The notes under the pieces were generated by a model. The model was not told the DNA's origin, did not search any database, and was given only the letters and a program-made list of their open reading frames with translations. From the NCBI GenBank assembly GCA_949710005.1, contig OX453272.1, positions 15,420,088 through 15,484,087 of the forward strand: DNA of 64,000 bases, written 5' to 3'. This stretch comes from Ricordea florida. Taxonomy: Eukaryota; Cnidaria; Anthozoa; Corallimorpharia; Ricordeidae. Positions 16,295 through 30,640 of this stretch are shown here, piece after piece; positions within the stretch are counted from its first letter, which is position 1; each line of letters opens with the position of its first letter. Both the position numbers and the translations under genes were made by a program.

Positions 16295-16314
16295 CAGCCT
16301 CGTCCCCAGGCGCC
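16295..16314 (+). repeat. Left terminal inverted repeat of element 2
   Basis: CAGCCTCGTCCCC followed by AGGCGCC. It differs from the complemented right end only at the second base. The first copy of the direct repeat CACTTATTG is at 16286-16294. Confidence 0.75.
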
Positions 16315-16780
16315 GCTCCCTGGTCGTGCGCGGTGCACTTTGCGTTATGGGATTGATAATTCGCGGATCGCTTGGCGTTGTGGGACTGTTGCGAACGAGA
16401 AGGCGGACGCCTGGCAGATCCTGTTCGGTTTCTTGGCAAAAATAGTCGGTTTCTTGTCAAAAGCCATTTTCGCGCTTGTATCAACGCCATATGTCAACGA
16501 ATCATCACTGGAAGGTACGTGGAAGTTACTAATGTCAACATGCGGATTTTCGCTGCCATTCGGATCGTTTTTGTTGCTCTATCGTGCAAAATCTTCTCTG
16601 CGGTTTACTTGGGCGAATGTGGGCCCCTCTGCTCAAATAATTGGCGGGAAGATTTCTTTTCCCGGGCTTCATTTGATCAACTCGAAATTAGCGATTCGAC
16701 AATAAGAATGGCGGGAAATCCTGACAGACGACTGATCATGAAAAAAGAAAACCTTGCGTTCAGGGCGGCAAGATCTAGCA

Positions 16781-19400
16781 ATGGCGGATGGAGATCCTCT
16801 GCCGGCATTAGAAGACTTTCTCTTAGATGACGGTGAGTAAAGTTAAAACTTTAACCGTAGCGGTGCCAGAGGGATTTTTTCGATTTTGATACATCAAGTC
16901 TGCTTTTATATAATGTACAGTACCTCTAGATGGTGGAAGTTCAACTGTGAGCAACGCTCGTTCACTAGGAAGAGAATTCGATGAGGTAGCCAAAAATTAT
17001 GGAGAAAAGCATGACCTCACGCCGAACTCAAAGGAAAGTATTTTACCAAGTTCCAAGCGCTTGGAAGTGGGTAAGCTGATTCTTTTGTGTCATTTAATTT
17101 ATGTGAGTTGCATGTAAGCTTACATGTGTGCTTAATAACACATTCATCATGGATCTTGAACATTTATTGTGGACTTGATAACAAGTCTCACTATTATTTA
17201 TTGTTTTATTGTTATATATAATCTATGATAACTTTGCAGTAGACAGTGTGGTGGCTTTCTTGAGTTTCTTGTTATATTTAGGTAAAGTTTACTTCTAAAC
17301 CAGTTTTCTTGTATGTGATCTAGCAGGGCGTGAATTATCTGGCGCTGAGCTCAAAAAGAGGCAAGAAAACTTGCAAGCCAAACTTCACAAGGGTTTTATT
17401 GAGTCTACTGGCAAACAGGTTCTACAAGCAGTTGTTCTTAACTTCCTCAATCTTGAGAAACATGAAAAAAGTCTTTGTACAAGGGTTGTTAAGGGGGCTT
17501 TCACACCAGCAAGTATTAAGAGAATTCGCAGGAGTGGGGATGAATAGTATCCTTTTTTATTAATTTTATTATTAATTTTTTTATGCTTTTGATAATTATG
17601 CAGATGTTTTCAATGCATTACATTCTTTTAAATATCAAATTCATTGTATGTTGGTTTTTGGAGCAGGATCAGAGGTGGAGAAACCTGAAAATGTGATGGC
17701 ATATATGTTAAGATCACTCTATTACTTGTTTCCAAATATGTTTGTTCTATCTAAAGTAAACAATACTTTTGAATCTTTTTGAAAAAGCAATGCACAGTAC
17801 AGTGAAATAAATTAATAAAATATTACAACCAAGAAAACTATTTGATTTAACTTAAAACTGTAAACCGTTTTTGAAACATTTTATGCTTGAGCAAAACCTC
17901 ATCCCACGTGTGACATAAATAAATTGATTGAATGATTGATTAACCTGAACTCAAACTTAAGCCTAGTACCTCTAGATCTAGCTATAAAAGATTCTTTGTG
18001 TCTATAGGTCTGTGTAAGAAACAGGTGCTTTGAGGTTGGAGAATACTTAGAACATGTTTCAAGATTAAACATTGTTCTGACCTTAACCCTGTTGAAGCTT
18101 TGTATACACAAACATTTTGATGAAACCTTCAATGGTGCACATCCAGGAAAACACTGTTACAGTGAATGAACATGTAGACAGAATGCAAAGTCAAATAGCT
18201 GATTGTGAGTGGTGTATGGGAGAAATATGGTCAAAACTTATGACAGCTTTAGAAGAACAAGATAATGACAATACAGCATTGCAACTTGCTTTAAAGTATA
18301 AGACTGAAGAACAGAGCAGAGACAAGTATATCAAGGCACTGGTAACACTCTATCAGAATGAGATAACCAACATCCAAGCACATGGGGAAAGTCTGACAGA
18401 TATGCAGAAAAAACTAATTGGTACAGAGATGAAAAAACTTGAAGAATGTGCCAATAAGGGTTACAGAGCTGGAAAGTTTTCCACTGATACGGACATACCT
18501 AATGATATATTTCAAGGATTTCTGGAAGAAATTCAAGAGAAATGCCCACTCGTGATGTCCGCCATTAAGAGTCTTGTGGTATCAGATAATACGCACCGGA
18601 ATGCTAACAAAACAGAACATTACAAGAAGTTGTGTGCCAGTCAGTCTTTGGCCATTCTCTTGAATATTAGAAATTCAAGAGCCGTTAATGACTTTGTGTT
18701 TTTGTTTGGAATACTTTGTATTTCGTATGGTGCAGGCAAACAAATGATCAACATGCTGTCTAAACTTGGTCTCAGTGTACAGTGGGACACCCTGTAAGTA
18801 CATGTACATCTATCTTTACATGATGTATGTGGATACAAAATATACTAATAATATTATAAGGTGGTTTTATATGAAGTGTATTCATTGAACTTAGAAGAAC
18901 CTGTTTATTTTGATAGTGCCTTTAAATTGGTTCATGCTTTAGTGTGCGGAACTTTGGGGAGCACAAAAGAAGTGTAAAAATTGCTTGAGGCAATAGGTGA
19001 GAGCAACTCTAGCTTCTTGAGTGCTCTCCATCCAAACGTCCCACATGCAACACAACTTGATAGTGCACAGCTGAAAGCATGAACCAATTGTTTTATAATA
19101 TTACCAGTAGAAATGGTGGACACTTATGTATACTGAATTTAATTGCACGGCTCTGCTTATAGCTATGTTATGAGGTTCGTTAATGGGCAAACCTACCTGC
19201 TGTAGCCTGGATCCTCACCCTTACCAAAGCTGGTGATATGGGACATATGTGGCCCAAGTATGGAAAAAACATGGGATGATCTATGGTCCATATATGATAT
19301 TTCTATGGCCTTGATATGGGCTATTGCCTTCCATATCAAACCCATACATGGTCACTGTTTCTTCTCAAGAGACATCATATTGTCTACTTCTATGGGATTG

Positions 19401-19435
<35 letters not shown>

Positions 19436-30300: not shown

Positions 30301-30567
30301 TTGAAGCCTTTTTTTGGCCTCGCGACGTTCATTTTCACCAGCTGGGAAATGGTGGACAATTCGAAAATGGTGGTCTAGGCCGTCCTCTTTGTAGAAACAT
30401 ACATTTCTTTTACAGAAGACATGCGGGCAAGGCACTTTATGCTGTAAAAAGGCTACATGCACGGGTCTTGCGCTGTTTAAAAACACGTTTTCGGCTTGAC
30501 ATATATTTTGGTCCGCCATTTTGATTGCAAGATCTGCCAGGCGCTCCGCGGCTCGCTCCCTAACCAT
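27400..30567 (-). CDS. Zinc-finger/RecQ-type DNA helicase of element 2
   Basis: Exons on -: 30567-30238, 29755-29511 and 28989-27400. Exon 1 has a Cys/His cluster ([17 protein letters not shown] then HHFRIVHHF) before the helicase. A second possible start, MADQNI, lies 48 bases into exon 1. Exon 3 holds the RecQ core in order: [10 protein letters not shown] (Q-like motif), [15 protein letters not shown] (I), [11 protein letters not shown] (II), [10 protein letters not shown] (III), [14 protein letters not shown] (IV), [10 protein letters not shown] (V) and [10 protein letters not shown] (VI), then a zinc-binding segment (KACDLCF). One TGA stop at 28077-28075 interrupts it in frame between IV and V. 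The role is presumably unwinding DNA during mobility of the element. It faces the DUF6589-type gene, with 290 bases between the two stops. Confidence 0.8.
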
Positions 30568-30620
30568 CTACCCCCGCGCCCCCTGTTTTCCCGCCTTACC
30601 GCGTCAACTGAAAACTGACT

Positions 30621-30640
30621 GGCGCCTGGGGACGAGGCAG
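30621..30640 (-). repeat. Right terminal inverted repeat of element 2
   Basis: GGCGCCTGGGGACGAGGCAG, followed at once by the second copy of CACTTATTG (30641-30649). The RecQ start codon lies only about 55-120 bases inside this end, so the terminal region must also contain that gene's promoter. Confidence 0.75.

Follow-up and report, generated by a model that had tools for sequence, protein, structure and literature searches.

The 64-kb window (the whole stretch of DNA that was analyzed) very probably contains a decayed AcademH-type DNA transposon, inserted into the leader of a Helitron-like element, where "AcademH-type" is set by the length of the target-site duplication, the inverted ends and the helicase gene, with the transposase as a putative member of the Academ family. 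The transposon is 14,346 bp long (16295-30640 of the window). The sequence-only reading of this DNA had proposed a discrete two-gene DNA transposon, in which a DUF6589-type protein is likely the transposase, partnered by a RecQ protein, and that proposal is well supported by the analysis presented here.

Ends of the element and site of insertion

The limits of the element are given by the following features.

16286-16294, no strand: left 9-bp target-site duplication CACTTATTG
16295-16314, plus strand: left terminal inverted repeat CAGCCTCGTCCCCAGGCGCC, 20 bp
16393-16423 (plus strand) and 30528-30558 (minus strand): subterminal inverted repeats, 74% complementary
30621-30640, minus strand: right terminal inverted repeat CTGCCTCGTCCCCAGGCGCC (given as reverse complement), 20 bp
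30641-30649, no strand: right 9-bp target-site duplication CACTTATTG, an exact copy of the left one

The two terminal repeats, CAGCCTCGTCCCCAGGCGCC and CTGCCTCGTCCCCAGGCGCC, are identical at 19 of 20 positions. We scanned the window for an exact 9-bp direct repeat immediately flanking 20-bp inverted repeats that differ at no more than one position, the two sides being 1-30 kb apart. Among the 12,208 repeat pairs at this distance (9-mers with more than 60 copies were left out), the pair bounding 16295-30640 was the sole match, and such a structure arose in none of 300 first-order resampled sequences. Chance repeats are thus rejected as the source of the ends, and the earlier reading of the inverted ends and of the 9-bp repeat beside them is borne out. 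Under looser limits (12-bp ends with two mismatches), at least one chance pair appears in 21 of 30 resampled sequences; since these limits are often met by chance, the weight of the argument rests on the length of the terminal repeats. No further copies of the end sequence with up to three mismatches were found elsewhere in the window, where none would be expected, and a comparison of the 17-base core of the ends with viral contigs gave one match.

The same window holds two copies of the Helitron-like leader without the 14-kb insert, at 6128-6516 (plus strand) and 9186-9552 (minus strand). On the left, 16066-16101 matches the first copy at 100% over 36 bases, the left flank matches the second at 95% over 44, and on the right, 30677-30927 matches the two copies at 68% and 75% identity. 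When the flanks are joined and aligned, 66 of 80 bases agree in the 100 columns to the right of the junction, versus 37 of 94 and 39 of 94 to the left. It had been claimed that the leader becomes continuous once the segment is removed. This holds insofar as the two insert-free copies match both flanks in order, but the left match stops at 16101, leaving approximately 190 bases before the insertion point, and the spacing between the blocks that match is 71-76 bases in the leader copies versus approximately 220 in the joined flanks. The two paralogues, in which no exact empty site was seen, share 85.5% identity and are possibly not independent witnesses. As judged from these alignments, insertion into the Helitron leader is supported, and the basis for mobility is one insertion together with two leader paralogues that lack the insert.

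The Helitron-like element itself continues to the right of the insertion, with the leader at 30650-31171 and a body at 36201-40706 (plus strand) that contains DUF6570, Helitron_like_N and PIF1. A reverse-transcriptase open reading frame (33495-34898) sits between leader and body, and with the transposon in the leader, the Helitron thus seems to have been hit twice.

Two facing genes, both broken

The transposase gene, on the plus strand, is made up as follows.

16781-17070, plus strand: exons 1 and 2, ATG at 16781 and exon 2 from approximately 16921; modeled from open frame and splice-like sites, outside tblastn coverage
17329-17523, plus strand: exon 3, homology-supported part (tblastn with P0001)
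18267-18794, plus strand: exon 4, homology-supported part (tblastn with P0001)
23199-23483, plus strand: exon 5 (tblastn), with LLLDNIN (candidate first catalytic Asp) and MWNFT
24265-25533, plus strand: exon 6, first part, with LPLSLEN, an acidic linker, ankyrin repeats, VVGDQGT (candidate second Asp) and PGDLH
25529-25651, plus strand: exon 6, second frame, at the first frame break (tblastn frames +1 to +2)
25638 to approximately 26171, plus strand: exon 6, third frame (tblastn frame +3), DUF6589 core with NYWTE (candidate Glu)
26744-27109, plus strand: last exon, ending in TGA (tblastn with P0008 to 27091)

The helicase gene, on the minus strand, approaches it from the other end.

30519-30238, 29755-29502 and 29272-29222, minus strand: upstream exons, ATG at 30519; modeled from open frame and splice-like sites
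28989-27400, minus strand: main exon, with the RecQ domains DEAD, Helicase_C, Zn-binding and RQC
28075-28077, minus strand: in-frame TGA stop, through which tblastn with P0017 and P0018 runs in one frame

Searches by tblastn with five relatives confirm that two genes face each other inside the element, as had been read from the sequence, and both are broken in this copy. Two frame shifts interrupt the transposase, one near 25530 and the other at an A run close to 25650; there is no intron at these places, and the relatives read straight through them. In the helicase, the chain continues past the TGA site in all of those RecQ relatives, 12 of the 17, whose stretch was caught by the pattern, as is expected of predicted proteins. 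With two frame changes in the transposase and a TGA in frame within the helicase, this copy is probably non-autonomous, unable to move alone, unless the breaks are assembly errors. The two frame breaks and the TGA, as well as the ankyrin block within the transposase, are new here and were absent from the earlier reading.

At the domain level, the transposase has a Pfam DUF6589 match at 4e-8. In a six-frame Pfam search of the whole interior, nothing other than DUF6589, helicase domains and ankyrin repeats was named at E 0.01, with no other transposase and no nuclease domain; weak single-ORF matches below Pfam's own cut-off (e.g. Vps5 at 0.0044 and NleF_casp_inhib at 0.0051) were taken as chance. 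The upstream exons of the helicase may include a zinc finger and gave no significant family match; the third of these pieces (29272-29222) is followed by GC, not GT.

This gene content bears on the possibility that the ends come from a different element, such as a MULE, which engulfed both genes. A 9-bp duplication would fit such an origin, as duplications of this length are typical of MuDR elements and MULEs. Against it, no MULE or other transposase domain was named in the interior in any of the six frames at E 0.01, and the modeled ATGs lie only approximately 490 bp (transposase) and 120 bp (helicase) from the ends, with the converging genes filling the element from both sides, as expected if both belong to it. 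We therefore consider an engulfing MULE very unlikely.

Two further observations concern the noncoding parts of the genes. The long intron of the transposase gene holds a MITE-like hairpin of 122 nt (22817-22938), with 42-nt arms that are 98% complementary. In addition, ATGGCGGA stands at the start of both modeled genes (16769-16788 and 30535-30512), shortly preceded by CAAGATCT in the plus-strand gene and by AGATCTTG in the minus-strand gene; going by the letters, the two 5' ends may be related, or the motifs may be binding sites.

Relatives of the two proteins

Searching with the joined exon translation of the transposase (residues 1-1150 of 1230) gave 16 proteins, of which 12 were taken as true relatives (31-43% identity over 55-93% of the query). 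The other four, P0013-P0016, were dropped, ankyrin repeats being the sole part in common. In this search and in that with the RecQ protein, only the approximately 8000 candidates that had the most words in common with the query were scored. Among the 12 relatives, Pfam names Ank_2 in all and DUF6589 in 11. A second query without ankyrin repeats was the C-terminal part of P0008 (residues 785-1155). It retrieved 29 proteins including the query, nine of them already known from the first search; all 29 carry ankyrin annotation and 25 carry DUF6589, in a search that admitted proteins of 0.55-1.75 times 1155 residues and so possibly missed shorter, ankyrin-free relatives. Sources of the relatives include Paramuricea clavata and Branchiostoma belcheri, and one relative in P. 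clavata carries the name BRCA1-associated RING domain 1.

We aligned 32 relatives with the window protein (33 rows) and counted residues among the rows that have letters at a given site. Invariant are D400 in LLLDNIN (24/24), D859 in VVGDQGT (33/33), D886 and H888 in PGDLH (33/33 each) and E1051 in NYWTE (30/30), all of which the window copy retains. From this pattern, D400, D859 and E1051 could be proposed as a catalytic triad; the proposal is a guess, because other acidic residues (E247, D666, E896, D943, E1030, D1090 and E1094) are just as invariant. The ankyrin block falls between D400 and D859 in 24 of the 33 rows, and the other nine have no letter at D400. No Pfam match was found upstream of the ankyrin block, so that the half of the protein with the first Asp has no match to the Pfam DUF6589 model.

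In a search against sequences of solved structures, each of the best 60 of 551 matches had its best stretch in the ankyrin part. A comparison of genome contigs with the DUF6589 alignment produced 28 pattern matches, of which one contig (L002, titled uncultured Alistipes) was retained; it was then rejected as a relative of the transposase, as all five of its aligned pieces fall at query residues 625-741, in the ankyrin part. Viral contigs gave 16 pattern matches to the same alignment and no relatives.

For the helicase, the search returned 7623 proteins, of which we examined the best 120. Within these, 17 (P0017-P0033) score at least 415 bits, versus at most 327 for the rest, and P0017 is 80% identical to the window protein. 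In a tree of the window protein, these 17 (a group defined by score) and 16 of the other 103 RecQs, the window protein and the 17 stand apart from the 16 with support of 88/82 (not starred; 88% of 200 bootstrap trees), although P0035, a long-branched member of the 16, joins the 17 in the tree as drawn. The window protein lies inside a starred set of six (100/100). A second, diverged RecQ-like fragment is present in the window at 5108-5746 (minus strand), with a Helicase_C match and a RecQ Zn-binding match just under the cut-off; proteins related to the element's helicase match it at 30-34% identity.

Probable assignment to AcademH and a possible mechanism

AcademH belongs to the Academ superfamily and was reportedly described by Kojima in 2020 (Mob DNA 11:15) under a title that names animals and fungi; we know it here from papers that cite that work. 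In the excerpted text of one, AcademH duplications are given as 9 or 10 bp and AcademX duplications as 3 or 4 bp, the groups being linked to a helicase and a nuclease (PMC10045372). The sequence-only reading had taken the 9-bp duplication as a sign of a distinct group. This is not borne out: with AcademH printed at 9 or 10 bp, the length of the duplication argues for AcademH, not against it.

Several other features agree with AcademH. First, the element has terminal inverted repeats, of 20 bp with 19 identical. Second, it carries a RecQ-type helicase gene with DEAD and Helicase_C, domains that excerpts of one paper associate with AcademH and KolobokH (PMC10799480); the parts seen of another state that 81% of fungal Academ copies have recognizable protein domains, such as PF00270 (DEAD-box) and recQ_fam (PMC6416283). 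The former also describes AcademH as low-copy in fungi (PMC10799480, excerpts). AcademX would be of the same superfamily if the assignment is right, but differs in having 3-4 bp duplications and a nuclease in place of the helicase (PMC10045372, excerpts); it was rejected in view of the 9-bp duplication and of the six-frame Pfam search (E 0.01), which found no nuclease domain in the element.

Kolobok elements, for their part, duplicate TTAA. The duplication here is the 9-bp CACTTATTG, not TTAA, and Pfam names no other transposase domain in the interior, which makes a KolobokH-like element with a transposase and a RecQ gene extremely improbable. The likeness that speaks for it is in architecture: in the available excerpts of PMC9587614, Kolobok lineages (KolobokH, Kolobok-1_CCri) also combine a transposase with RecQ, in one lineage on the complementary strand.

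The ankyrin block within the transposase is a possible difference from the AcademH elements described. The window's element could instead represent a DNA transposon superfamily apart from Academ, with an ankyrin-DUF6589 transposase and a RecQ helicase, that has the 9-bp duplication and the helicase in common with AcademH by coincidence. The ankyrin repeats in all 29 proteins of the ankyrin-free search (query included) would favor such a reading, as would the literature, where Academ and ankyrin occurred together, among the matches listed, only in a honey-bee genome paper. Oppositely, the duplication length and the RecQ gene both fit AcademH and Academ as printed in the excerpts (PMC10045372, PMC6416283), and no other superfamily with a 9-bp duplication and RecQ was met in the parts of the literature that were searched. 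A separate superfamily thus seems improbable, and we retain the assignment to AcademH. As a further and rather unlikely possibility, elements with ankyrin-DUF6589 and RecQ genes might constitute a separate group of animal transposons, unrecognized in the literature searched. Its ankyrin module, set within the catalytic region between the two Asp residues of the active site, would perhaps attach the transposase to a host protein of chromatin or DNA repair.

For the AcademH-type element, we infer the following route of movement. The DUF6589/ankyrin protein, most likely a DDE-type transposase, would bind the 20-bp ends and the subterminal repeats, excise the element by cut-and-paste, and join it to a target whose two strands had been cut 9 nt apart; repair of this target would leave the 9-bp duplication. 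The RecQ helicase would most likely unwind DNA at the ends or at the target, or help to resolve and repair the joined product.

These results link the ankyrin-bearing version of DUF6589, a Pfam family of unknown function whose name was not found in the papers searched, to a single bounded element that has ends, a duplication and a helicase partner. Elsewhere in annotated animal genomes, DUF6589 and RecQ-like genes may accordingly be transposon genes too; the P. clavata relative named BRCA1-associated RING domain 1 would be a case in point. The ankyrin block within the transposase, should it turn out to be new to the literature, would make an unusual protein-docking module for the core of such an enzyme.

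The remainder of the window holds other repeated and mobile-looking sequences. A repeat family with several inverted and direct copies, approximately 77-92% identical, occupies 6016-13071 and 41197-42282. Three minus-strand open reading frames of 266, 435 and 317 aa (43169-47171), which have no Pfam match at E 0.01, lie inside 42915-49168, a segment with 9-bp repeats AAATAACAA and 12-bp inverted ends carrying two mismatches; pairs of this kind are those found in 21 of 30 resampled sequences. To the left of the transposon, an open reading frame at 15076-15705 (plus strand) encodes a GIY-YIG domain, a domain also found in Penelope-like elements.
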